Assembly (NCBI GenBank): GCA_025174535.1
Contig: JALBUN010000010.1
Coordinates: forward strand, 434,001 to 498,000
Origin: Cantharellus purpuraceus
Taxonomy: Eukaryota; Basidiomycota; Agaricomycetes; Cantharellales; Hydnaceae
Length of the DNA stretch: 64,000 bases
Direction: 5' to 3'
The notes below the pieces were generated by a model, which had not been told where the DNA came from, did no database searches, and saw nothing but the letters and a program-made list of their open reading frames with translations. The position numbers and the translations under genes are program-made. Below are positions 34,066 through 64,000 of the stretch, piece by piece. Positions within the stretch are counted from its first letter, which is position 1. Each line of letters begins with the position of its first letter.

Positions 34066-35788
34066 GATGATGGGATGTCTACCCTAAAGAGGGAAATAGC
34101 GACTATGCCACTGTAAACCCCCACAACTTTCGTCCTGTGTTTACTAACGAGCAGCTGGCATCGTCCCTACGAGCATCCACCCTCATGACTCCCACCCTCT
34201 GAGCTGTCACCATTATGGACATTGACCAACTCCGCTCTGACATCCGCTCATCACTCCGATCTGATCCTATTGCAGTTAAACACTTGGACAACCCTTCCGA
34301 TCCAAAATGGTCACTTGACCCCGAAGGACACCTCCAACACAACAACCAGATATACATCCCTGACGCCAACGGCCTCTGACTCCGAGTTTTTAGTATTATC
34401 ATGATCACCCGATCTCTGGCCACTTCGGGCAAAATCACACACAAGGATTAATCCGACGAGACTACGTATGGCCAAAAATGTGGGAATACATTCAACACTA
34501 CTGTAACTCCTGCACCACATGTATGCACTCAAAATCGCAAAGGCACAAACCCTACGGAACGCTCAAACAACTTCTGATCCCGGAGCAACCATGGAACTCC
34601 ATCTCCATGGATTTCATAGAGAAGCTCCCCCCATCGCTCGGATATGACACCATACTCGTGATTGTCCACGCTCAGATATGACACCATACTCGTGATTGTC
34701 CACGCTCAGATATGACACCATACTCGTGATTGTCCACGCTCAGATATGACACCATACTCGTGATTGTCAACAGGTTCACCAAACAGTCACTATTCATTCC
34801 GACGCATGACACCATCACCTCCGCCTCACTAGCTAAATTGTTCGTTCTCCATGTATTCTCTAAACACGGAGTCCCATCGCATGTCACGTCCGATCGGGGT
34901 TCGGAGTTCGTATCCTCCTTCTTCTGCACATTAGGAAAGGCTCTTGACATGAAGCTCCATTTCACCTCCGGATACCACCCTGAAGGAGACGGACAAACGG
35001 AATGAATGAATCAGTCACTGGAACAATATCTCCGAATCTATTGTAACTATCAACAAGACAACTGGGCTGATCTACTTCCGATCGCAGAGTTTGCCTACAA
35101 CAATGCTCCAAATGCGACTACTGGCATCTCTCCGTTCTTTGCTAATAAAGGCTACCATCTGAACATCTCCGTCCACCCCGAGAAAGAACTTGCTTCCACC
35201 AAAGCCCGCCATTTTGTAACCGACCTCGATCAACTACACCAACATCTCTGAGAGACCATCTCTGATGCTCAGAAACAATATCAAGTCTCCGCAGACCAAC
35301 GCCGCATTCCAGCTCTGGACCTGCAAATCAGAGACAAAGTATTTGTTAAGGCCAAACATTTCCAGACCACCCGTCCATCGAAGAAACTCTCCAAGAAATA
35401 CTTAGGTCCTTATGAGGTCATTGCTCACGCGGGCAGCAGGTCTTTCACCCTCCGCCTCCCGGACCACTTCCGAGCAGTTCATCCGGTCTTCCATATATCA
35501 ATGCTTGAACCCGCTACTACGAACGAGATCTCCAGTCACATGCAACCTCCACCTCCCCCGATCATCATCAAAGGAGACAATGAATATGAGATCTCAGAGA
35601 TCCTGGACTCAAAGATCGACCATCAATACAAGTGCAAGCTCCAGTACTTAGTCAAATGGGCTGGATACAAAGGCACCGATGAAGAGTCTTCATGGATCTC
35701 CGCATCCGAACTTGATCATGCATCCGAATCCGTCTCCGATTTTCACTCCACTTATCCAGACAAACCTGGCCCTCTTATGAATCTTTAA
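34066..35788 (+). pseudogene. gypsy pol, second part: integrase and chromodomain
   Basis: It opens with the HHCC zinc-binding area (HISGHFGQNHT-like text at about 34400-34440, frame-shifted near 34390, then CNSCTTC at about 34500-34520). The rve catalytic core follows: the first catalytic Asp in SISMDFIEKLP, then VTSDRGSEFVSSFF and YHPEGDGQTE. GPY/F-type text LGPYEVI is next, and finally a chromodomain (EISEILDSK...LQYLVKWAGYKGTDEESSW). TGA stops at about 34197, 34376, 35003 and 35249 replace Arg codons. A 34 bp unit is repeated four times at 34641-34776 within the core; three extra units total 102 bp, which restores the frame but introduces stops. Confidence 0.9.
34641..34776 (+). repeat. 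34 bp tandem repeat, four copies, in integrase
   Basis: Units start at 34641, 34675, 34709 and 34743 (GATATGACACCATACTCGTG...), nearly identical over 34 bp, with the last unit leading into the normal coding sequence. In the parent frame this codes YDTILVIV. Confidence 0.93.
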
Positions 35789-40845: not shown

Positions 40846-41562
40846 TCTCATTACAGCAATTTGCATTATGTAAGGCCAGTGCTTGTTTGAAGAGTGCAAA
40901 GCCTCAAATTTGCAAATGCAATATCTCACTCATTTCCCAACTGAATGACATGAAATTAAGTAAATGTAGTCTATGATGTATGATCTAGTGTTTAATGTGA
41001 AAAAATTGGTAGAAATGTGCCTTGATAAAACTTGCATTTTTCTGCTTACATATACTTCTGAACACTTTTGTGCAAGATTTGAGGCATCAGTGTAAATTTT
41101 GAGTTGTTCCATATGCTCTTATACCTGTCATTTAGTGATTTTCTGTTACCCTTGGGGTGACAAACAAGGCACAAGCTTTACAGGGTTTCTCATGGTCAGT
41201 TGTCTATGCTTGTCAAAGCCTCTGGCCCTTCTGTGAAGACTTTAGTCTTTATTGAACTGCATAATGCACTAAATTACATGTATAAGAGCTTATTCAACAA
41301 CTCAGAATTTACACTGATGCCTCAAATCTCACACAAAAGTGTTCAGAAGTATATGCATAAGCAGAAAAATGTGAATTTTATCAAGGCATGTTTCTGTAAT
41401 TTTTTCAAAATAAAATACTAGATCATACATCAGGGAATAAATGTACTTAATTTAGTGTCATTTGGTTGGGAGATGAGTGAGATATTGCATTCATAAGTGT
41501 GAGGCTTTGCGCTCTTCAAACAAGCACTAGCCTTGTGTAATGCAAACCGCTGTGATAATAAG
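40846..41562. mobile_element. Foldback element with long inverted arms (~275 bp each)
   Basis: 40846-41120 is complementary to 41278-41562 at roughly 85% identity by eye, around a 157 bp unpaired centre. Arm landmarks include GTGCTTGTTTGAAGAG near 40879 and its complement near 41515, and CTTCTGAACACTTTTGTG near 41050 against its complement near 41330. Ends read ATTACAGCAATTTGCATTA and complement of ATCACAGCGGTTTGCATTA. No transposase is encoded, so it is a non-autonomous foldback or MITE. It ends about 170 bp before the tetraspanin start codon and may overlap its promoter. Confidence 0.8.
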
Positions 41563-48945: not shown

Positions 48946-49661
48946 CTAATCGTCCTCGGCCATGGATATTAGGGAGGTCAATAGCTCACCCGAAGTTTCA
49001 CCAGATTCCTTGGCGATGCCCCCATACTTGTATTGACAGGCAGAGAGAAATGTTGTACTCGCATCGTTGTCAACCAAGTGGTCGCCGGCCAAGAGCTGTT
49101 GGTACGAATTCATGGACACATGCAAAATGCCACGTAAAGAAATACTTAATAGGGGCACGCAAAACCAACCCCGAAACCATACCTTGATCGATGCACCACT
49201 TCAGAAGCAGTAGCATGCGTCAGGTTCCTTTTCCGTACGGCCCTGAAAACCGCCCTTCTGCTTTTGTACAAGCCAACGCAGAATACTTCTTACTTCGGCA
49301 GGAGTTAAACCTAGGTGCGAAGGAGGCGGGAATGTTTTCCGAAAGGAGATGGAAAGCAGGCGGAGAGAGGCCAAAGCGCAATAAGTTGTACCACCTGGAT
49401 ACATATATGGTGTCAGCCCGGTATAGAGCAGAACCCCCGGGTTTTTCACCTTGTGCCTCTCTGCCTGAGATTCACCGTGTCCTCCTTCGTATGCCTATCC
49501 CACAAGGTCAAGAAGGCTCGGAGGTCGAAAAAGGGAAACCACACTCTGCAACGCATGACAAATGCGACTGCCTTATCGACGTCAATAGCTGACCAGTCAT
49601 CGAGCATTGAACAGATGGCAAAGCTACAGAATGTCAGGCGTAGATCACGTTCGGACGACAC
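48946..49661 (-). pseudogene. Relic of geranylgeranyltransferase type I beta subunit
   Basis: Minus-strand pieces match the prenyltransferase beta alpha-alpha barrel in order: DLRLTFCSFAICSMLDDW and AVAFVMRCR (about 49540-49655); GGTTYCALASLRLL then LTPAEVRSILRWLVQKQ and KGGFQGRTEKEPDACYCF (about 49201-49405); and after an intron-like gap LLAGDHLVDNDASTTF and ACQYKYGGIAKE (about 48970-49095). The Cys and Tyr of DACYCF are zinc-site/active-site signature residues. The next codon is TGA (49201-49203) where a Trp is expected, the YEGGYGQ segment before GGTTYC is missing, and the C-terminal HTYLSL region is missing. The gene is therefore decayed. GGTase I attaches geranylgeranyl to CaaL proteins such as Rho1/Cdc42 and is normally essential, so an intact copy should exist elsewhere. 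Confidence 0.72.
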
Positions 49662-50294
49662 AGTGCCTATTGGTAAAGGTGAAGAGCTGACGGCGCGATT
49701 AATGGGCTACAGTATCAGTATTCATATCCAAACTGACCTGCCGTCTGTGTGCTGGGTCAATCTCAAAAATGATGCAAGACCCGGTCTGTCTAGCCGAGAA
49801 AAAAAGTTGTCTCTTAATATGGTTAACGACAGCAAGGCGGTGTAGGTCATAACTAAGTGAGGAGGGTTATATCTTTCAGATAAATGGTCGGTCTGAGAGG
49901 TGGTGAATTTTTAATAGAAAATAGTCCTCCATGGCCGCTCACTTCTGAGTCCAGGAAGGATCCAGGCTTGAAACCAAAGCCATATTGTCCTTATATGAAT
50001 AATGGATCATTTCACTGATTCTCTAGAATGCACATGAACATGAACTCACGGAGAGATTGATGAACAGAACGGGGCGTCCCTTGGGATCCACTACGGTCCA
50101 CAAATGTGACTACGGATCTTCGTTGACCGAGTCGCTGATAGGGGCGTATTACTGAACGTATATAAGTTTTGCTTGTGTAGTTTAGTACCTCAGTCACTCG
50201 TTTAACACGAGATTGAGGTAGGATTTCTTCTACTTTATATTTAACAAGTAGCTGACACAGTATGTAGTTTATACTAGGTTTGTCAGAATAACAG
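49662..50294. other. Flank of the giant palindrome with LTR-like hairpins
   Basis: At 50189-50219 there is a palindromic motif (CCTCAGTCACTCG / CGAGATTGAGG around TTTAACA) related to the 32 bp LTR hairpins at 22970 and 25944. The motif CAGTCACTCGTTTAACACGAG recurs at 50293-50313, straddling the outer boundary of the left palindrome arm. No gene seen. Confidence 0.5.
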
Positions 50295-50319
50295 TCACTC
50301 GTTTAACACGAGACTGAGT

Positions 50320-51103
50320 TTATACGCTGCGTTAACCTTCTATAGAGATTCCATATCCAATCACGCCAGTCCGTCCTGTCTGTATCACTTACTTTATCTT
50401 CATCCATCACACCTAGAAGATCCAAGCCGGAGAGACAATAGTAAGCAATACCCAGCCTGGACCTATCTATACTAAAGTCTTCTCGGCTGCTGTGAAATAA
50501 CAGAAAGTCTCCTACCGAGATGTCTCAAGATCCAACTTTGAAGCGGGAAGTCCAGTTATGCATCGTTTCAAATGTGCAACATGGGATGCTTTTGCAAGGA
50601 CCGAGGCTGCAGAAGGGTTCGGTCACATGATATTGCTGGTTCGGTCATCGGCACGCTCATGCAGAGTTAATCGCTCATCCTTCCTCTGGTGTTGAATGCT
50701 CGTGGTTAAAAGCCTGCCATAGAATTGATACTACCGCTTCTAACATGGTGAATCAACCCCTTTCTTCAAATCTGTTTCCCGGGAACCATCCTGCTACCTT
50801 GTTATTCCCTCATTTGACATCTCAGTATCCCGAGAAGCCTCGCCCTCGCCTTTGCCCCCTCCTTCTATAAAGTTCCCCACACATTCGCCTGATCCGTCGC
50901 TCTTTAATCATATCCCTCATCCACTTTCTCGGTCTACTCGGTCGCGAATCACCTCTTGTGTCCAAAGCATCTGTGGAAGCACCTAAAAATTATGTTGACT
51001 GTGATGGTGAGAAGGATCAGCTTAGGGAATGCTTAAAGGTGGTCAGAACTTGAGATAAAGGTCTCTTGTAGATGGGCTAAGACCATCGAGTGCGGTTGCG
51101 GGT
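50320..51103 (+). other. Left-arm region upstream of the WD40-type half gene
   Basis: No gene recognised. It probably contains the promoter of the WD40-type gene, ending in the ATG at 51104. Mirrored at 59648-60431. Confidence 0.4.
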
Positions 51104-52808
51104 ATGGGTATTCGCAGCGAGGTCGAGGGCAACGGCGGGAGCCAGCGGAAAGGCTACCGCTCCACTCCTCCCACACCTCGAACGCCTCGTGAGTCGCTAT
51201 CTTCCTCTCCATCCTCTTCTATCTCTTCCCTCTCGTCCCCAAACCTTGCGCCTTCCACATCGCCTGGCCAGTCATTTCACGTTGAATGGCTCCTCCTCTC
51301 ACCCTCAAGTTCCACGTGCTGCCACCCCGGCTTGGTTGGGGAGAATCGTGTGGTTTCTCTGCACCATCTTTCATGCGGCATTCTTATTTCCCTACAAGAA
51401 TCTGGACTGGCGAACGCGTGTGGCGATTATCCAACTAGAAAATCTCAACCTCTACTACTCGCGATGGTGTGCTACAAAAGGTTGCAGAATGAGTCATGGA
51501 GGGTACGCCTGGAGCTATGGGATTACTGAAAATGATGAGAGTAGCTGTTTCTTTATAGGTATGACTTATTTGCGACAATGATCTGAGCCCTCTCCCCGAA
51601 GTTGTTCTATGTCACTCCACCAGCGTCGAGACTTGTGACCCATGACCTGCACATAGTCCCCCCAGCGTATGTGGTAGCCGCTCCAGAGTCTCTACAACCG
51701 TCTGCAGAGGCTCTTTCCTCTTTTTCCGTGACGCCAGTCGCAGCACCCCTATCACTTCCCAAGAGTGCCTGAGAGGTATACTATGGAGTCATAGAGATTC
51801 CGTTGTAAGAAACCCGAACGTTCTTCTTGTGATGTAAGCTGAGGTAGATCACACAAGGTTTTCGAAACATCGACTTCATGAAAGCTAAAATGCTCGGGGA
51901 AGCCTCTCACTTTGGCTTGACTACTGTCGAGACGGTGGGACGTGATGTTTTCGCGCTGGCAGATGCGGTAAGCTCTTACTATGAATTATATGTGGCTGAT
52001 GTTCATGGTGGCGTATTTCAATTCGTTCAGCGTCAAATTGATATGTTTCGCCTCTCTCGTGCACAACAATCACATGTGTCCTCGTGAGTGACATCGATAG
52101 CTCGTATCAGTTACGTCGCTTACTTATAAACACGATAGTCCGCTCGATCAGAGACTTGAACATGTGTCATCGACCGTGTTCACCAAACCGTGCTCCGTTT
52201 CAAGTGCGATTTCCTCATCCCTGATCTCAAGTTCCAGAGTCAAGCCTGACTCAATTGAATTGGAACGTCACTGCTTGACATATACACCTGTAATGCCACT
52301 CACCTCAAAAGTCAAGCATGGGGACAAGGAGCGCGAAAGAAAGGCAGAAATTCAAAACGGCTTGGTCATAATTCTCGAAAAAACGTCCTACCAAGGAAGA
52401 GGGGACTGCACGTCGACCGACATCATTGCTTCCTGTAGAGATTGAGTGGGTCGTTCTTGGATTTAGTGAGTATCTAGTTATCTAGAGGTTGATGACAGAT
52501 GTGTTGAGATTTGTGCAGGTGATGGCACCCTGGGACGATCATCATTGTCGAATCTTCTGATGGGAGGATGGCATAATCACGACGAACAAAGGACAGGTGT
52601 AAACGGCATCATCACGAGCCTTCACTCTGTCACGAATAAGCATAATGGTAAGAAATTAGTCATAGGAGGGGTGGATGACGGGGGGAATCGCTGCGTGGGA
52701 TCTCAGGTTGGTTCATGGAACTGTTGTTTTAGCAAGTGGCCTGATTAATCTTGCAGCACCTTGAAATTGCGTGCCCGTGGACGATATTCACGGAGCCTTT
52801 ATTAAAGG
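51104..52808 (+). pseudogene. 5' half of a WD40-type gene (left arm copy)
   Basis: It opens MGIRSEVEGNGGSQRKGYRS and continues with Ser/Pro-rich text. Further segments with coding character are KVKHGDKERERKAEIQN-like (about 52310-52350) and a beta-propeller-like stretch LLMGGWHNHDEQRTGVNGI and KLVIGGVDDGG (about 52556-52685). After the latter a one-base excess in a G-run (about 52679-52684) breaks the frame before what would read IAAWDL. The last matching piece is WTIFTEPLLKVIP (to about 52815), where the homology stops. The 3' half lies outside the palindrome on the minus strand at 60937-62705. WD40 assignment rests on the GG-DDG...WDL pattern. Confidence 0.55.
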
Positions 52809-52817
52809 TCATCCCGT

Positions 52818-53285
52818 GCCGTCGAGCACACGTAGGCCACTTCGTCCCCAAGTTCCTCTCTACTGCTAATTTTCTCCTCTCACATCAAAGCATCTGTCAA
52901 CTAGTCCTTGGACCAACTATTGCAACTATACACACGAACCACAACCGAAACGAGGCCGCGCTACCCATTTTCCTGTCCACATTCTCACCATCTTTGCCAT
53001 TTTTCTTTTTGTCTGCATACCTTTTAAAAGGGGGTGGAATTTTCTCTAGTCTGTACCCGACTCCTGCGGTGGACAGCATCCAAACATCTGAAGCATCGTA
53101 TTATAGAGGCTGGATGGAGTATTATGGAAGATGCTATAATATTTGACCATGTTGAAAGATTTGTCAAGGATTAGAAGAGCCAAATAACAACGTATCCCAC
53201 ACGATCTCGAAATGTTTGAACGATATCCAATTGTCATTGTGAGTCCTGGTGATTTAAGCGGGTTCAAGACCACAACGACTGAATT
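52818..53285 (+). repeat. Direct repeat copy 1 inside the left arm
   Basis: Shares GCCGTCGAGCACACGTAGGC and about 420 bp of following text with 54169-54616 in the same orientation. This copy has an extra ~40 bp pyrimidine-rich stretch (about 52982-53020). It begins exactly where WD40-type coding homology stops. Mirrored at 57466-57933. Confidence 0.85.
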
Positions 53286-54168
53286 CCTTGGACAAGTTCG
53301 ACCGCTGGAAGATGTCAGGTCTTGAGTCACAATGGTGTAGAGTGAGCACACTACTCACTCATTCTGACACCCGTTCCAGCGAGCTGCACCATTCGCCCCA
53401 TGCCCGACGTGGGCGGGTGTTGAAGGGGGTCACCAGAGTCCTCCCCCCCTTGTTGAGGGGGTGTGGCCCTTTGGGTACAAATGTTCCAGAAAAAGATGAC
53501 TACAGGGCTCGCGACTGCAACGACTGTTGAAGGCTGTTAGAACGGCATAATCCCATCGTGGAAGAGAGAGCAGCTCACCGCTGAATACCATACCCACTAC
53601 GTGATACCAGTGGATAGGCGTCGTTGGGGGGTATGCAACACTATCGTTCAACGGTGCCATTGCAATGTGGAGGAGATGATAGAGGAGAAGAGTTGAAGAA
53701 CTTCCCTCTCTTTATACCACTCAGGTGGCCCAAATGTGGCCAAAGTGGATGTGGCATGAAACATCCTAGTGGAAAAAATGATATTCGTTAGGAAAAAAAT
53801 ACCCTTAACCGAGCCTACGTCAGAGGGTGTTAGCACAGGTCAGAGCTAGACGCCATCGGAGTTCCAACCTATAGCTTCAATCAACATCCCTTGTTCGCTC
53901 TCCCCCTCGCGATGACCAGCATCAACCTCTCATCCTTCACTCGATAGTCAAGACTAGACGTTGTATGTTGGTGCTGGTTTTACCTGGTGCTATGGAACGG
54001 GCTGGGGTCGGTATTCTTCCGAATCTCAGCGATCTCTGATTTAGAACTCTTAACCGAGCCTTGGGCGCACTGACCTGGAAATTTTTTCAGGGGATTCTTT
54101 GTCTCAGATTTATGACCATGCGTTGTGGACACGCCTTACTGCATCCGAGTTCCACCGCGGAATGACCG
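53286..54168. other. Left-arm region between the direct repeats
   Basis: A minus-strand open stretch (53430-53836) starts MLTPSDVGSVKG and its next frame starts MAPLNDSVAYPP. No domain recognised. The C/G-run palindrome CCCCCCCTTGTTGAGGGGG at about 53446-53465 can form a hairpin. Mirrored in the right arm. Confidence 0.35.
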
Positions 54169-54616
54169 GCCGTCGAGCACACGTAGGCCACTTTGTCCCC
54201 AAGTTCCTCTCTACTGCTAATTATCTCCTCTCACTTCAAAGCATCTGCCAACTAGTCCTTGGACCAACTGTTGCAACTTTACATACGAACCACAAGCAAA
54301 ACAAGGCCGCGCTACCCATTTTCCTGTCCACAGTCTGCATACCTTTCAATAGGGGGTGGAATCTTCCCTAGCCTGTACCCGACTCCTGCGGTGGACAGCA
54401 TCCCAACATATAAAGCGAGGCTGGATCGATTAGAGATCTATGTGTTATGGACGATACTGCAATATTTGACCATGTTGAAGGCTTCGTCGAGGATTAGAAG
54501 GGCCAAATAACAACATATTTCACACGATCTCAAAATGTTAGAACGATATCCAACTCTGTCATCCCGAACGTGAGTCCCTGTGATTTAAGCCAGTTCAATG
54601 CCACAACGTCTGAATT
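54169..54616 (+). repeat. Direct repeat copy 2 inside the left arm
   Basis: About 90% identical by eye to 52818-53285 and lacking its ~40 bp pyrimidine stretch. Mirrored at 56135-56582. Confidence 0.85.
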
Positions 54617-55311
54617 TCGCGTCCAGGGGCTCCCTACCGGTCGTTGGATGAGAGTCTATATGTTAAAGACCATTCGAAAGCCTTGATGCACGCGCATGAT
54701 TCACAGACAGCCAACTCTCTGATGTCTGGAAGATAAAACGCTGCATGCTGACGTCGCGGTTAATACAGGGCTCAATTGGTGATGCCCTGTTTATCGCACA
54801 GAACTCCTGTAGTCTACGACCACGACCACGACCGCTGGCAATGTTGCTTGCCAATACAGAATGTGTTAGTGATCCTCAGATCGCCCCGTGATGTGCACCG
54901 CCTTGAGTGGAAACAGAGTGTATGGCACGTCCGCCAACGACAACTCACTTCCGACAACTTACTACCTTGAACCTTCATATCACACTGTTGAGCTTTGTTT
55001 TTTTTTTTTTTTTTTTTTTTTCGTCGGCCGCAATCCATCAAATCCACCATTCCAGATGTGTGCCGTCCACTGGAAAGGCAGATACTTTCCAAGGGAGTTC
55101 ATGGGTTTACTCTAGAGCAGACAATAAGATAAAACGAACCATTTCTATTGGCTTAGAAGGGGATAACCCCGCCATCAAACTTTAGTCCAAATTTGAACCG
55201 GAGTCCTTTGTAATGTGAACTCCGATGGGCGTCTCCTCAGTTAAGAGCAGCGCTATGTGAATTATTCCACATACTCTTGCTGCAGACAATAGCCCACAAT
55301 AGCTGAGACAT
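54617..55311. other. Inner part of left arm, with T24 run
   Basis: No gene recognised. A homopolymer of 24 T (54998-55021) interrupts otherwise mixed sequence; its mirror has 19 A. The arm ends at 55311 next to the spacer. Confidence 0.5.
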
Positions 55312-55444
55312 AGACACTAAGGAAGAAAGGCTGTCGATCAGGCCCACAGTGAAAGGCTGTCAATCAGGCCCACAGTGTGATGCCTTTCCTCAGGGACAAC
55401 CTAGGTTCTATACTACCGCAGCTGTGGAAGAGATAGACAGGTTC
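55312..55444. other. 133 bp spacer at the palindrome centre
   Basis: This is the only sequence not mirrored. It contains a 27 bp tandem duplication with core GGCTGTC(G/A)ATCAGGCCCACAG (copies at about 55329 and 55356) and unrelated sequence to 55444. Confidence 0.9.
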
Positions 55445-58400
55445 ATGTCTCAGCTATTGTGGGCTATTGTCTGCAGCAAGAGTATGTGGAATAATTCACA
55501 TAGCGCTGCTCTTAACTGAGGAGACGCCCATCGGAGTTCACATTACAAAGGACTCCGGTTCAAATTTGGACTAAAGTTTGATGGCGGGGTTATCCCCTTC
55601 TAAGCCAATAGAAATGGTTCGTTTTATCTTATTGTCTGCTCTAGAGTAAACCCATGAACTCCCTTGGAAAGTATCTGCCTTTCCAGTGGACGGCACACAT
55701 CTGGAATGGTGGATTTGATGGATTGCGGCCGACGAAAAAAAAAAAAAAAAAAACAAAGCTCAACAGTGTGATATGAAGGTTCAAGGTAGTAAGTTGTCGG
55801 AAGTGAGTTGTCGTTGGCGGACGTGCCATACACTCTGTTTCCACTCAAGGCGGTGCACATCACGGGGCGATCTGAGGATCACTAACACATTCTGTATTGG
55901 CAAGCAACATTGCCAGCGGTCGTGGTCGTGGTCGTAGACTACAGGAGTTCTGTGCGATAAACAGGGCATCACCAATTGAGCCCTGTATTAACCGCGACGT
56001 CAGCATGCAGCGTTTTATCTTCCAGACATCAGAGAGTTGGCTGTCTGTGAATCATGCGCGTGCATCAAGGCTTTCGAATGGTCTTTAACATATAGACTCT
56101 CATCCAACGACCGGTAGGGAGCCCCTGGACGCGAAATTCAGACGTTGTGGCATTGAACTGGCTTAAATCACAGGGACTCACGTTCGGGATGACAGAGTTG
56201 GATATCGTTCTAACATTTTGAGATCGTGTGAAATATGTTGTTATTTGGCCCTTCTAATCCTCGACGAAGCCTTCAACATGGTCAAATATTGCAGTATCGT
56301 CCATAACACATAGATCTCTAATCGATCCAGCCTCGCTTTATATGTTGGGATGCTGTCCACCGCAGGAGTCGGGTACAGGCTAGGGAAGATTCCACCCCCT
56401 ATTGAAAGGTATGCAGACTGTGGACAGGAAAATGGGTAGCGCGGCCTTGTTTTGCTTGTGGTTCGTATGTAAAGTTGCAACAGTTGGTCCAAGGACTAGT
56501 TGGCAGATGCTTTGAAGTGAGAGGAGATAATTAGCAGTAGAGAGGAACTTGGGGACAAAGTGGCCTACGTGTGCTCGACGGCCGGTCATTCCGCGGTGGA
56601 ACTCGGATGCAGTAAGGCGTGTCCACAACGCATGGTCATAAATCTGAGACAAAGAATCCCCTGAAAAAATTTCCAGGTCAGTGCGCCCAAGGCTCGGTTA
56701 AGAGTTCTAAATCAGAGATCGCTGAGATTCGGAAGAATACCGACCCCAGCCCGTTCCATAGCACCAGGTAAAACCAGCACCAACATACAACGTCTAGTCT
56801 TGACTATCGAGTGAAGGATGAGAGGTTGATGCTGGTCATCGCGAGGGGGAGAGCGAACAAGGGATGTTGATTGAAGCTATAGGTTGGAACTCCGATGGCG
56901 TCTAGCTCTGACCTGTGCTAACACCCTCTGACGTAGGCTCGGTTAAGGGTATTTTTTTCCTAACGAATATCATTTTTTCCACTAGGATGTTTCATGCCAC
57001 ATCCACTTTGGCCACATTTGGGCCACCTGAGTGGTATAAAGAGAGGGAAGTTCTTCAACTCTTCTCCTCTATCATCTCCTCCACATTGCAATGGCACCGT
57101 TGAACGATAGTGTTGCATACCCCCCAACGACGCCTATCCACTGGTATCACGTAGTGGGTATGGTATTCAGCGGTGAGCTGCTCTCTCTTCCACGATGGGA
57201 TTATGCCGTTCTAACAGCCTTCAACAGTCGTTGCAGTCGCGAGCCCTGTAGTCATCTTTTTCTGGAACATTTGTACCCAAAGGGCCACACCCCCTCAACA
57301 AGGGGGGGAGGACTCTGGTGACCCCCTTCAACACCCGCCCACGTCGGGCATGGGGCGAATGGTGCAGCTCGCTGGAACGGGTGTCAGAATGAGTGAGTAG
57401 TGTGCTCACTCTACACCATTGTGACTCAAGACCTGACATCTTCCAGCGGTCGAACTTGTCCAAGGAATTCAGTCGTTGTGGTCTTGAACCCGCTTAAATC
57501 ACCAGGACTCACAATGACAATTGGATATCGTTCAAACATTTCGAGATCGTGTGGGATACGTTGTTATTTGGCTCTTCTAATCCTTGACAAATCTTTCAAC
57601 ATGGTCAAATATTATAGCATCTTCCATAATACTCCATCCAGCCTCTATAATACGATGCTTCAGATGTTTGGATGCTGTCCACCGCAGGAGTCGGGTACAG
57701 ACTAGAGAAAATTCCACCCCCTTTTAAAAGGTATGCAGACAAAAAGAAAAATGGCAAAGATGGTGAGAATGTGGACAGGAAAATGGGTAGCGCGGCCTCG
57801 TTTCGGTTGTGGTTCGTGTGTATAGTTGCAATAGTTGGTCCAAGGACTAGTTGACAGATGCTTTGATGTGAGAGGAGAAAATTAGCAGTAGAGAGGAACT
57901 TGGGGACGAAGTGGCCTACGTGTGCTCGACGGCACGGGATGACCTTTAATAAAGGCTCCGTGAATATCGTCCACGGGCACGCAATTTCAAGGTGCTGCAA
58001 GATTAATCAGGCCACTTGCTAAAACAACAGTTCCATGAACCAACCTGAGATCCCACGCAGCGATTCCCCCCGTCATCCACCCCTCCTATGACTAATTTCT
58101 TACCATTATGCTTATTCGTGACAGAGTGAAGGCTCGTGATGATGCCGTTTACACCTGTCCTTTGTTCGTCGTGATTATGCCATCCTCCCATCAGAAGATT
58201 CGACAATGATGATCGTCCCAGGGTGCCATCACCTGCACAAATCTCAACACATCTGTCATCAACCTCTAGATAACTAGATACTCACTAAATCCAAGAACGA
58301 CCCACTCAATCTCTACAGGAAGCAATGATGTCGGTCGACGTGCAGTCCCCTCTTCCTTGGTAGGACGTTTTTTCGAGAATTATGACCAAGCCGTTTTGAA

Positions 58401-60456
58401 TTTCTGCCTTTCTTTCGCGCTCCTTGTCCCCATGCTTGACTTTTGAGGTGAGTGGCATTACAGGTGTATATGTCAAGCAGTGACGTTCCAATTCAATTGA
58501 GTCAGGCTTGACTCTGGAACTTGAGATCAGGGATGAGGAAATCGCACTTGAAACGGAGCACGGTTTGGTGAACACGGTCGATGACACATGTTCAAGTCTC
58601 TGATCGAGCGGACTATCGTGTTTATAAGTAAGCGACGTAACTGATACGAGCTATCGATGTCACTCACGAGGACACATGTGATTGTTGTGCACGAGAGAGG
58701 CGAAACATATCAATTTGACGCTGAACGAATTGAAATACGCCACCATGAACATCAGCCACATATAATTCATAGTAAGAGCTTACCGCATCTGCCAGCGCGA
58801 AAACATCACGTCCCACCGTCTCGACAGTAGTCAAGCCAAAGTGAGAGGCTTCCCCGAGCATTTTAGCTTTCATGAAGTCGATGTTTCGAAAACCTTGTGT
58901 GATCTACCTCAGCTTACATCACAAGAAGAACGTTCGGGTTTCTTACAACGGAATCTCTATGACTCCATAGTATACCTCTCAGGCACTCTTGGGAAGTGAT
59001 AGGGGTGCTGCGACTGGCGTCACGGAAAAAGAGGAAAGAGCCTCTGCAGACGGTTGTAGAGACTCTGGAGCGGCTACCACATACGCTGGGGGGACTATGT
59101 GCAGGTCATGGGTCACAAGTCTCGACGCTGGTGGAGTGACATAGAACAACTTCGGGGAGAGGGCTCAGATCATTGTCGCAAATAAGTCATACCTATAAAG
59201 AAACAGCTACTCTCATCATTTTCAGTAATCCCATAGCTCCAGGCGTACCCTCCATGACTCATTCTGCAACCTTTTGTAGCACACCATCGCGAGTAGTAGA
59301 GGTTGAGATTTTCTAGTTGGATAATCGCCACACGCGTTCGCCAGTCCAGATTCTTGTAGGGAAATAAGAATGCCGCATGAAAGATGGTGCAGAGAAACCA
59401 CACGATTCTCCCCAACCAAGCCGGGGTGGCAGCACGTGGAACTTGAGGGTGAGAGGAGGAGCCATTCAACGTGAAATGACTGGCCAGGCGATGTGGAAGG
59501 CGCAAGGTTTGGGGACGAGAGGGAAGAGATAGAAGAGGATGGAGAGGAAGATAGCGACTCACGAGGCGTTCGAGGTGTGGGAGGAGTGGAGCGGTAGCCT
59601 TTCCGCTGGCTCCCGCCGTTGCCCTCGACCTCGCTGCGAATACCCATACCCGCAACCGCACTCGATGGTCTTAGCCCATCTACAAGAGACCTTTATCTCA
59701 AGTTCTGACCACCTTTAAGCATTCCCTAAGCTGATCCTTCTCACCATCACAGTCAACATAATTTTTAGGTGCTTCCACAGATGCTTTGGACACAAGAGGT
59801 GATTCGCGACCGAGTAGACCGAGAAAGTGGATGAGGGATATGATTAAAGAGCGACGGATCAGGCGAATGTGTGGGGAACTTTATAGAAGGAGGGGGCAAA
59901 GGCGAGGGCGAGGCTTCTCGGGATACTGAGATGTCAAATGAGGGAATAACAAGGTAGCAGGATGGTTCCCGGGAAACAGATTTGAAGAAAGGGGTTGATT
60001 CACCATGTTAGAAGCGGTAGTATCAATTCTATGGCAGGCTTTTAACCACGAGCATTCAACACCAGAGGAAGGATGAGCGATTAACTCTGCATGAGCGTGC
60101 CGATGACCGAACCAGCAATATCATGTGACCGAACCCTTCTGCAGCCTCGGTCCTTGCAAAAGCATCCCATGTTGCACATTTGAAACGATGCATAACTGGA
60201 CTTCCCGCTTCAAAGTTGGATCTTGAGACATCTCGGTAGGAGACTTTCTGTTATTTCACAGCAGCCGAGAAGACTTTAGTATAGATAGGTCCAGGCTGGG
60301 TATTGCTTACTATTGTCTCTCCGGCTTGGATCTTCTAGGTGTGATGGATGAAGATAAAGTAAGTGATACAGACAGGACGGACTGGCGTGATTGGATATGG
60401 AATCTCTATAGAAGGTTAACGCAGCGTATAAACTCAGTCTCGTGTTAAACGAGTGA
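55445..60456 (-). repeat. Giant inverted repeat, right arm (5,012 bp)
   Basis: Reverse complement of 50295-55311, with 5 bp fewer in the homopolymer run. The sequence immediately beyond (60457 onward, GCTCACTCTACACCATTGTG) is a further copy of sequence found inside this arm at about 57404-57440. Confidence 0.95.
57943..59647 (-). pseudogene. 5' half of the WD40-type gene (right arm copy)
   Basis: Mirror image of 51104-52808 with identical translations, including the same one-base frame break in the G-run. Because both copies share that defect, the break predates the duplication that formed the palindrome, or the arms have been homogenised. Confidence 0.55.
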
Positions 60457-60936
60457 GCTCACTCTACACCATTGTGACTCAAGACCTGACTTCCTACAGC
60501 GCTCAACTATGTCGCCCCACAAATTAACTACCCACTAAACGTCTAGGGTCATCAAATCACATTTCTCGAGGGCATCTGCAGTAGATTCGCCAGAAGTTCA
60601 AGGTTGCTCTGGTCAGAATATCATAGAGAACCTCGTGTTCGGACATGTTTCGAATGCCGTATTGTTGCATCGTTGCATTTCAGACCAGCCTCCTCCACAT
60701 TAGGTCAGGCTTTTGTGGATCTCCAACGTAGCAAACTTGCCGATGTTGGTCTGGAAAAGTCATGCTCAGATTATAGTGCACGAGAAGAACTAGAAAATCG
60801 GCCCGTTCCATTTAGGTCAGGCTTTTGTGGATCTCATCAACATAGCAAGCTTGCCGACGTTGTTTTGGAAAAGTCATGCTCAGATTGTCAGATTGTAGTG
60901 TGCGAGAAGAACTAGAAAGTAATGCGATCAGAATCA
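60457..60936. repeat. Junction fragment and a ~113 bp tandem repeat
   Basis: 60457-60492 repeats arm-internal sequence (about 57404-57440). Then two tandem copies follow (about 60700-60800 and 60814-60918), sharing AGGTCAGGCTTTTGTGGATC, AGCAA(A/G)CTTGCCGA and GAAAAGTCATGCTCAGATT. In the plus frame they would encode SKLADVGLEKSCSD and SKLADVVLEKSCSD. Probably a local duplication of decayed coding or repeat DNA. Confidence 0.65.
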
Positions 60937-62705
60937 TCATGCCGGCACAAGATTCCGCATCAACGCCCGCAAATCCCCAGATCTATGTATTGAAAAAAAA
61001 TGCGTTATCTCGAACTCTAAGCCTCGCAGTATGGTCATATGGCCACTCAAATCGAACCCACTCGAGAGTCCAAGGTCGTCATGAATAATGGTGTATTGCT
61101 GGACGCAATTTGCAAGTCCGCCGTCCTCGCTTGAGCACCGATGTTCCGCTCCTTCTCTGCGCGATAAGCTGAATAGCGATCGCAAGACTTCCATAGCATC
61201 AGCATGATGTTGCCATATCTCGAATCCGCGAGAACAGAGTTTGATCACCAACACGCGATGAGGACAATTCTCGTCAGGAAGATAGAGTGTTATCGATTTA
61301 GCGATATCTGTCAAGGTGCTACATTTTCGTGTGTCAGAAGAATGAATGCAGAGAATAGGGATGGAAGATACCTGGGTGAAAGAACTGCGTATCACTCCGT
61401 AGCCACTGCCCGCAATCAGCAAGGCCAATGCTAAGCAGGATGACTGTTTTTCTGCATCGGGCTGGAGACAAGGCACTATTGATCACAACAATGAGTCACT
61501 TCTTAAAAATCATGTCTAACGAAGCGCTCACACTCACGTTGCCAATGCTTGACCAAACTAATGGTGTCTTCACCTGACAGTCGACACCGAGACGAAGACC
61601 GGCCGGATTAAACAATCGATCAACTTCGCTCAGGCAGCACCGAGTGTGATACATATAAGATGTATAGAACAATATCGTGCTAAAAGTGACAAACAGGGCG
61701 CTTGCCATGATTCCCCGACTACATCCGGTACTGTCGCGATGTAGAACGTGGCCACCTGGTTGGCATATTGCTCACACTCTTCTACACAGTGAGAAGCGAA
61801 TGATGACAAGATTGATCGTACCATCAAAGACTAAAAGCCCTCTGAGCACTGCGACAAGCGCCAATAATCGCGAAGCTGTATGCTCTGAAGAAATTTCAAA
61901 AACTGATCGAGGATGTCGTCGATGGTGTCGTCAAGTCCAAAGCTCATCAATGCTCCGCCAAAGCTTTCAAGAGTTTCAAGCGGCGAGGCATCAGTTGGCA
62001 GGCAATGGCATGTCCGATTTAGTGGCACCCGTCGATCGGGAGCTAGTGTTTTCGGGATGACGTGGATCTCGGAATTGTTGCGAAAAGGGGATGGGGTGTA
62101 TCAGGTCACGCAGAGTGCGGAGATCAAGAAGTAGAGTTGATGCTATGGTATGAAGTTAGTCGACGTAGATTATTGATAGCAAAATAAAATACACCTGCCT
62201 CGTAGATTTTTGTAGCGATGCCAGAGGTGTTCCACGAAAACTGGTTTTTCTGTATCCAACCTCTCTATGTGGCATCTTTTATCGAAACTAGAAAATGAAG
62301 TAGCGAACTTGCGCCTCAAACCATGAAGCCTGGGTGAGTAATTCATCTGCAGCCTTGAATTCCTGAGTCTTTCCATCCCACAGCTTCGCTTTACCGTTGG
62401 CATAGACCAACAGCAAATTGTCTTCACCCAGACATATGCGAGTTAGACGTGCTGCCGAGCCCGGAATGAGATATAAGCTGTCCAGACACACATTGAAGCT
62501 TACTGTAATATAGAAACAATGAATAAAATTCAACTCAAAATTCAAGGTCATCGATGGCAATGACGGCAATTGAGCCATCGTCTGAAACACATAGGATACA
62601 ATCTCTGAGTCTACCAACGCCTTCTTGATCCAACGGGATGACCGTTAATAAAGGCTCCGTGAATATCGTCCATTGGGCATGCAATTTCCAGGTGCTGCAA
62701 AATTG
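60937..62705 (-). pseudogene. 3' half of the WD40-type gene (degenerate)
   Basis: Minus-strand coding-like pieces in order: WTIFTEPLLTVIPLDQEGVG and CILCVSDDGSIAVIAIDDLE (about 62545-62680); YLIPGSAARLTRICLGEDNL and VYANGKAKLWDGKTQEF (about 62355-62480); DELLTQASWFEA (about 62300-62345); ETLESFGGALMSFGLDD and ILDQFLKFLQS (about 61870-61990); SLALLIAGSGYGVIRSSF (about 61390-61440); SITLYLPDENCPHRVLVIKL and FEIWQHHADAMEVLRSLFSL (about 61170-61300). LYVYANGKAKLWD is a WD-type strand. Stops and shifts separate several pieces (for example TGA after DDLEF), so the gene is probably dead. Its first ~70 bp (62635-62705) overlap in homology with the end of the 5' half in the palindrome arms. Confidence 0.6.
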
Positions 62706-63228
62706 ATCAACGACTGACCTGCTATCGGATGGACATGCTTTAACGTCCTCCGATTTGTCGGGGGACTCAGACTCATCATGCGATGATTCCCTGCGTGCGT
62801 AGTTTCAGGGCTCTGCTGGTCGATGCTGGCAAGGATGCTTGCTGAGCACGGTAAGCCAGAGGTATCTGACAAGAGCAGACATCATGACGGGTGAGTTCGT
62901 CAGGGCTGCATAAGACCATTATGGCAAGCGATTAAACACCTCGCAAGGCATGACAAAGAGCACAGCTCGTAGGAAATTTCTAAGAGGTTGTCGCTGAGCA
63001 AGAGAGTCATCCTGTGGACCAAGGTATGGCATGGATTTTATCGAAGTAGTGCTCGAAGTAGTGGTCGAAGAGAGTTGAGGGGCAGATATGTATGACACCT
63101 CAGAGCTCTCAATTTGGATTGGATTTCTGCCTGCAATGTCGGCCCTAGCACTGTAACTCGGAACCTGGTTCCAATAGGATTACTGCCATGAACAGCAATA
63201 AGCACGACCATGGAATGATGGGCTTCTT
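62706..63228. other. Unassigned sequence beyond the WD40 relic
   Basis: Open frames on the minus strand (62645-62872 and around 63000-63200) give short stretches with no recognised domain. Confidence 0.3.
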
Positions 63229-63555
63229 TTAAATCTCACGTATCATCTGAATGACATACGTCACACAAAGATATGTACTACCTGTTCCGTCAGGGTTTCT
63301 ACGTCGCCGCCCCACCTTGCCCTCCTTCAATGTGACGAGGGTGCTTGCAGGGTTCTGGTCCCCCCCTTGCTGATGCGCCATGGCCGCTGTTGTGTTCGTG
63401 GGTGCGTCCGGGGTACGCCTCCAGTTGCGCAGCAGAAGATGTTTTTGCCAGTCCGACCGGATATAGACATCGCCCAGCGCGGACCATGCCGGAGATGGAG
63501 CTTCCCATGGCGATAAGGGGCCGAAGGCATTCGCGAAGGAACAGCAGCTGATCAC
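63229..63555 (-). CDS. Hypothetical ORF, possible exon
   Basis: A 108-codon open frame on the minus strand, containing GDVYIRSDWQKHLLLRNW and a basic EGKVGRRRRNPDGTG segment. Two other frames are also open over the same GC-rich stretch, so coding status is uncertain. No family recognised. Confidence 0.25.
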   Translation of the reverse strand: MISCCSFANAFGPLSPWEAPSPAWSALGDVYIRSDWQKHLLLRNWRRTPDAPTNTTAAMAHQQGGDQNPASTLVTLKEGKVGRRRRNPDGTGSTYLCVTYVIQMIREI

Positions 63556-64000
63556 GGGCGACAGAGAGGGCCTGTCTTAAGTAGGGGTGGGGGGGTAACC
63601 GTGCTCGTGAACCCCAGTCAGAATCGACGTCTCAAAACGGACGCCATTGACAACGCTTGATTTAGATCTAGATTAGATCGGATGTCCTTGGATCTGCTCG
63701 TGCTTGCTCGAGATCGAGAGGCACATGTGTAAATACTTTTCCCTGCAACTATTTTGAGCCTAATCTAGTTTGGGAAAGGACATACCTTCAGCTATGAACT
63801 GTGTGTTAATTATGTGAGTTGATGTGCTTGTTCCAGCACTTACATGATAATATATTGCGTCCTGGTAAGCTGTAGCTCCAGGATGAGCATATTTTTGCTA
63901 AGTCCACTGTAGTCCTGTGAACAGAGTTCAACAAATTGGATTTGATATAAGAACTTAAAGGTTCATAAGAGGACCAGGTTTATCTGGATAAGTGGAGTGG
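63556..64000. other. Right edge of the window, no gene recognised
   Basis: AT-rich after about 63640. No ORF of note and no repeat match to the rest of the window was noticed. Confidence 0.4.

Follow-up and report, generated by a model that had tools for sequence, protein, structure and literature searches.

A 10-kb palindrome in Cantharellus purpuraceus and its probable origin by fold-back inverted duplication with later recombination between the arms

The palindrome and its relatives

The window analysed here is a stretch of 64,000 nucleotides of the Cantharellus purpuraceus genome (bases 434001-498000 of the 2.31-Mb contig JALBUN010000010.1, below C10), and positions are window coordinates unless preceded by another contig. 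It contains a palindrome of 10.16 kb, in which two arms enclose a spacer of 133 bp. BLAST of the window against itself aligned 50295-55311 with 60456-55445 over 5017 columns, with 0 mismatches and one 5-base gap. The gap falls in a homopolymer, T24 at 54998-55021 and A19 at 55735-55753, and when this homopolymer is collapsed the arms are the same string. Such an identical inverted repeat of 5 kb cannot be due to chance. The initial annotation had reported a palindrome of this length and spacer, with the homopolymer as the sole length difference, and had proposed counting the arm differences by alignment; its description is borne out by both self-BLAST and string comparison. The parts of the palindrome and its right flank are the following.

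50295-55311, forward strand: left arm, read as the native (source) copy; 0 mismatches to the right arm, outer part collinear with contigs C24 (to 53295) and C14 (to 52817)
55312-55444, forward strand: spacer of 133 bp, delimited by self-BLAST; inverted in contig C16 relative to the right flank
55445-60456, reverse strand: right arm, an inverted copy of the left, its end formed by a dispersed repeat and a prenyltransferase gene, both truncated
54998-55021, forward strand: homopolymer T24, the only difference between the C10 arms; the right arm has A19, and in the long C16 arm the run is one T longer than T24
52818-53285: direct repeat of 54169-54616 (80%, self-BLAST), present within each arm
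52742-52817, unstranded: inverted copy of 62633-62709 (77 bp, 91%), hinge of the right-flank inversion in C14
53291-53352, unstranded: inverted copy of 60452-60513 (89%), the remnant of an older inverted repeat
60457-64000, forward strand: right flank, common to C16 (to 67144) and C24 (to 63783) and inverted in C14 (60550-62718)

Six-frame Pfam scans of 48.0-52.9, 52.5-55.5 and 60.0-64.0 kb gave a single signal, prenyltransferase PF00432, with hits in the left flank and at the outer end of each arm; beyond this cut gene end no protein family was seen in the arms. The open reading frames of one arm reappear in the other, as first described; with prenyltransferase as the only Pfam family these frames look mechanical. 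No match was found in an Rfam scan of 44-64 kb at the gathering threshold or in a transfer RNA scan of the whole window. A 26-bp tandem repeat lies inside the spacer (55325-55377). For the inner third of the arm (53640-55311) the only relatives found beyond C10 and C16 are 34 bp on C23 and repeats, at 80%, of the 54169-54616 type.

Genome searches with the arm and the flanks covered one 40.15-Mb assembly of 50 contigs (C3, C4, C14, C16, C23, C24 and others), and copy counts from them are lower bounds. Three related loci were located, on C16, C24 and C14, and no further large arm copy was reported. C16 carries a second, partly deleted palindrome with the same spacer and right outer junction, and 7 kb of right-flank sequence goes with it, C10 60165-67144 aligning to C16:59395-52375. 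It is composed of right flank, one shortened arm, spacer and a long arm cut at 50574. At the C24 locus the left flank and the arm as far as 53295 (about 96-97%) are followed by a short dispersed repeat, by a near-palindrome of 504 bp and by the right flank 60452-63783 (97%). In C14 (86-93% in the larger blocks) the left flank leads into the arm, which reaches 52817, and the right flank follows in inverted orientation. The related stretches on C24 and C14 are without the big palindrome. The centre and flanks, at first described as unique, are therefore not so genome-wide: copies of the left flank are on C24 and C14, C16 as well as these two carries the right flank, and for the spacer there is a copy on C16 and a relative on C23.

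The near-palindrome of C24 (C24:144315-144818) has almost no spacer and arms that are 96.8% alike. It was considered as a direct precursor of the 10-kb palindrome and dropped, its arms being just 84% like C10 53291-53639 while the flanking parts reach 96-97%. In C14 (C14:209065-212058) the right flank of the window lies inverted beside the arm, with the 77-bp inverted repeat as hinge; this arrangement is possibly an older inversion. A 3.4-kb gene stretch of the window, the one stretch tested, is single copy save for two matches of about 60 bp, and the assembly therefore looks haploid or collapsed, not composed of two full haplotypes. A protein search with one open reading frame of the window gave 169 proteins above the threshold; in the 120 listed, basidiomycete sequences stood first, headed by Ramaria, Gautieria and Hysterangium, and Clathrus and Sphaerobolus were within the first 18.

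Source arm, junctions and secondary copy

The outer ends of the two arms differ in their surroundings, and the features there are the following.

50057-50346, unstranded: dispersed non-coding repeat of about 290 bp, with the left palindrome edge inside it; absent from the C14 site
48993-50473, reverse strand: gene copy resembling the GGTase-I beta subunit (PF00432), interrupted by the dispersed repeat
60278-60412, forward strand: duplicated 5' exon at the end of the right arm, an exact mirror of 50339-50473 (19.6 bits, under the 26.5 cut-off)
60452-60457, unstranded: right junction, read as novel; AGTG is present in both parents one base from the joint, and the junction is identical in C16

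The dispersed repeat was also found at seven other listed places, on C3, C4, C9, C10 (two), C45 and C49; its part 50151-50325 is matched over the whole length at 5 of these 7 and partly at 2. As the Rfam and transfer RNA scans were empty, the repeated sequence at the palindrome edge does not correspond to any listed RNA; what lies there is the end of this repeat. The repeat contains two internal hairpin copies and has a near 8-bp duplication at its flanks, and no terminal inverted repeat was seen in 50057-50346 by eye. It is read as lying within an exon of the prenyltransferase gene copy, which is probably a pseudogene. The 5' exon alone (50339-50473) scores 20.1 bits for PF00432, under the 26.5 cut-off, and the GGTase type was assigned through the C14 counterpart, one exon of which best matches type-I beta chains among solved structures. 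On the right side no additional exon was seen beyond 60412 in the Pfam scan of 60.0-64.0 kb.

These ends give the duplication a direction. The left edge lies within an intact dispersed repeat and gene copy, in the same arrangement in C24, and the right arm ends with both truncated. For this reason the left arm is the source, with 50294/50295 as native sequence and 60456/60457 as a new junction, a reading supported by comparison of the loci. In C24 the neighbour of the right flank is a 53291-53639-type repeat, a place that the truncated dispersed repeat takes in C10 and C16. At the centre, C23:881-1001 resembles 55278-55408 (75.6% over 131 columns, E 6.5e-21) and spans 55311/55312. As this relative runs across it, 55311/55312 is taken as the native border and 55444/55445 as the probable inversion joint. 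The inverted copy is thus parted from its source by a short unduplicated spacer of 133 bp, and one arm is native and the other has two new junctions, the assignment of the centre depending on a single relative at 75.6%. The AGTG microhomology at the right joint is suggestive only.

The C16 segment is flanked by one element split in two, the parts of which are adjacent on C4; by its motif it resembles a Ty3-type reverse transcriptase. The parts lie at C16:48664-52387 and from C16:66157, and 198 bp of the element are missing. Since the flanking element is split there with this loss, C16 is the recipient of a piece equivalent to C10 50574 to about 67134-67144. At the edge of the transferred segment are 186 bp of other sequence (C16:65971-66156), and C16:72000-76000 holds a repeat that recurs many times at about 75-85%, and several of its copies lie on each of C16, C17, C9 and C3.

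The right junction is identical in C10 and C16 at 65 of 65 bases, and on the right flank 10 of 3325 sites separate them in 60457-63783 and 41 of 3360 sites in 63784-67144. The palindrome is accordingly older than the copying, and C16 preserves the C10 locus as it was at an earlier time. The copy on C16, whose arms have diverged, is decaying: one arm is without 50587-51704 and 53598-55285, and the other is without its outer end.

Together these loci make it probable that the palindrome is a real basidiomycete structure which arose as a fold-back inverted duplication and underwent recombination between its arms afterwards. A break on the right-hand side of 55444 would have let the left end fold back with the spacer as loop, and the folded end would have primed inverted copying over about 5 kb, beginning at 55311 and reaching 50295. 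The copy would then have been joined to the right flank within an older inverted repeat. The right flank is retained distal to the putative break, and only part of the repeat seen in C24 is missing. Later, a piece with the palindrome would have been copied into the C16 repeat element. After this transfer, arm-to-arm conversion or template switching would have homogenised the C10 arms, and in one lineage the spacer would have been flipped by an arm-arm crossover or a double template switch. Comparison of the loci supports the distinction of source and copy, the new junctions, the secondary transfer, the shared derived changes and the flipped spacer, all read from sequence.

Probable homogenisation of the arms and inversion of the spacer

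The differences between arms were counted from blockwise alignments and polarised by the C16 arm or arms present, C24 and, where available, C14. Eight derived substitutions (50477, 50634, 50904, 50905, 50933, 51331, 52294 and 53278) and two derived indels (50324 and 50463) were scored on the C10 lineage. All 10 of these changes are found on both arms, and the homopolymer is the sole change on one arm. Differences between C10 and C16 with no usable outgroup (53507, 53585, 54372, 54410, 54836, 55288, 55362 and the homopolymer) were excluded. On the right flank the C10 branch has changed at 3 of about 3312 sites. At this rate about 9 differences are expected between C10 arms evolving separately from the C16 copying onward, and 0 are observed (P about 1e-4); at the rate seen in the arms themselves 28 are expected. 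The identity of the arms is thus above the expectation from their age, subject to assembly collapse, and lineage-specific derived changes are common to both arms.

The C16 arms differ from each other by 14 substitutions in 1760 aligned columns and by 5 gap runs. In 52680-53260, five substitutions and one 1-base indel separate one C16 arm, which has the C24 state, from the other, which has the state of both C10 arms. This distribution suggests that two arm versions probably existed at the time of the C16 copying and that C10 lost one of them later. In C16 an 88-bp deletion (52072-52159) and a change at 52771 are derived on both arms. Five substitutions (52465, 52489, 52547, 52650, where C14 has the same base, and 52843) and three deletions (52429-52455, 52468 and 52475-52488) are on one arm only. 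Conversion seems to have acted in C16 too, with a lag.

Arms this alike had been explained initially as either very young or kept identical by gene conversion. Youth does not suffice as the sole explanation, as the palindrome pre-dates the C10/C16 copying and the right flanks of these loci are distinct at 10 of 3325 sites. Homogenisation of the arms after that copying fits best, and erasure of differences by the assembler is the competing account.

Anchored on the right flank, the C16 spacer matches that of C10 as its reverse complement with 1 mismatch in 133, against at least 79 in the same sense. The two loci hold the spacer in opposite orientations. A crossover between the arms in either lineage would explain this, as would a double template switch. 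A crossover also swaps the inner parts of the arms, and for this reason no direction of overwriting between the C10 arms is claimed.

Several points weigh against this history as a whole. A progenitor allele of the centre, with a short inverted repeat for priming, was not found in the genome searches, and a microhomology as short as AGTG does not decide the matter. Most scored sites have one C16 arm only, both arms being present at 52294 and 53278, and at 53278 C24 is the sole outgroup. C14 stands on the other side at 52815, one of the six sites that define the two versions, and the stretch 53640-55311 is without an outgroup. The old-type tract of C16 could have been gained from a C24-like copy; it still differs from C24 at 9 sites. 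Of the eight substitutions four are C to T and one is T to C, with no sign of GC-biased conversion. One consensus written into both C10 arms by an assembler or polisher would give the identity and the pattern on both arms without conversion. As the C10 arms are perfect, the assembler could also have set the C10 spacer orientation wrongly, and with reads under 10 kb this orientation would be arbitrary; the C16 arms have enough differences to fix theirs. The palindrome itself is independent of the doubt about assembler erasure, and the claim of conversion depends on it.

Alternative explanations and comparison with known systems

The alternative that survives best, though it is less likely than the fold-back duplication, is a pair of template switches during one passage of a replication fork and without a double-strand break, from the right flank to the repeat at 50295 and back at the spacer. 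It differs from the fold-back account in the first step only. The product would be the same, and the short homology at the right joint agrees with it. In yeast, template switching is reported to homogenise the arms of short inverted repeats and to invert spacers (PMC8604942). A precise return at the spacer would be needed after 5 kb, and the same sequences fit both routes.

It is rather unlikely that the palindrome is real and the perfect identity of its C10 arms a collapse during assembly or polishing, the true difference being some tens of bases. Arms of 5 kb may exceed many read lengths, and ten changes out of ten on both arms are also what a copied consensus would leave. However, T24 against A19 implies that the arms were not simply pasted, and the same assembly kept the C16 arms distinct at the 14 substitutions.

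That C10 and C16 are alleles in the two nuclei of a dikaryon instead of paralogues is improbable. Mushroom cultures are often dikaryotic, but the single-copy state of the 3.4-kb gene stretch argues against two haplotypes, and the flanks of C16 (split element and repeats) show no collinearity with those of C10 over the 74 kb and 30 kb that were compared.

Palindromic joins are a known artefact of assemblers and of sequencing, and the initial annotation had raised the possibility that a contig was joined to its own reverse complement, in which case C10 would have no palindrome. This is very unlikely, as the two flanks differ in sequence, C16 shares the centre and the right junction but its arms are diverged and deleted, and both the inner and the outer junctions are as a polarised copy event would leave them.

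Least probable of all is a foldback-type transposon with 5-kb terminal inverted repeats: the palindrome is present at two loci and a foldback-like repeat family lies nearby (40850-41556), but the places found, a lower bound, include no carrier other than C10 and C16, the copy on C16 is cut in one arm at 50574 and brings 7 kb of flank, and its site shows a 198-bp target loss with 186 bp of other sequence and not a clean duplication. Shared ends and target-site duplications were looked for as marks of such an element and the candidate was rejected, C16 lacking one end and 198 bp of target.

The nearby family is a 707-bp imperfect palindrome in the window (40850-41556), 77.7% alike to its own reverse complement and with 61 match rows in the genome. 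Many places match on both strands, as would be expected of a foldback family or of miniature inverted-repeat transposable elements with long terminal inverted repeats. Further to the left, 34635-34768 is a tandem repeat with a 34-bp unit in 3.9 copies (99% matches).

Beyond the fold-back duplication, a more tentative reading, held with less than even confidence, is that the locus is a hotspot of inverted duplication which has given rise to four or more inverted structures differing in age, and that the youngest of them is actively converting and flipping its centre in living cells. The structures counted are the 77-bp pair (91%), the 53291/60452 pair (84-89%), the 504-bp near-palindrome of C24 (97%) and the 10-kb palindrome. 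If so, nuclei of one mycelium may hold both orientations of the centre.

Large palindromes are usually seen in their end state alone. Here one genome holds a palindrome, a relocated and decaying copy whose arms are still different, and two relatives without it, which together give the direction of formation, the new junctions and a view of a fungal locus before and after arm homogenisation. If reads confirm the structure, arm-to-arm conversion and inversion of the centre become testable in a group of organisms whose nuclei can be isolated and crossed. Among the titles and abstract openings listed from one literature library, none described a multi-kilobase nuclear palindrome with arm conversion in a basidiomycete, which is no proof of absence from print; two Cryptococcus mating-locus papers (PMC12510652, PMC11844451) use the word palindrome once each.

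The kind of process is known, and what is unusual is the set of stages within one genome. Human germline fold-back inverted duplications with a disomic spacer, with sequenced spacers of 766-70,466 bp, likewise have an inverted copy of the flank around a short unduplicated spacer and a far end joined elsewhere (PMC3907307). They are far larger, whereas the present case has a 133-bp spacer and 5-kb arms, is interstitial and keeps the right side of the chromosome. The foldback inversions of Saccharomyces cerevisiae (PMC7467729) show a fungal hairpin route to inverted duplication, stabilised by secondary rearrangements; they were selected in a laboratory genetic system, in contrast to this natural locus with a later history.

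Palindromes of sex chromosomes share long, near-identical arms and lineage changes on both arms (mammals, PMC8981503; willow W, PMC7023750), but they carry genes and the C10 arms show none of the Pfam families beyond the cut gene end. Palindromic inverted duplications outside sex chromosomes occur in the parthenogenetic Folsomia candida and in Adineta vaga as cited with it; these are palindromes of gene blocks (PMC5490193), with a synonymous rate of 0.2 in the Folsomia example discussed. In the flip/flop of Saccharomyces chromosome XIV (PMC9731477), homogenisation of the repeats accompanies inversion of the region between them, as it may do here; there the inverting region is 24 kb with 15 genes, and in Cantharellus the palindrome is nearly without a spacer.

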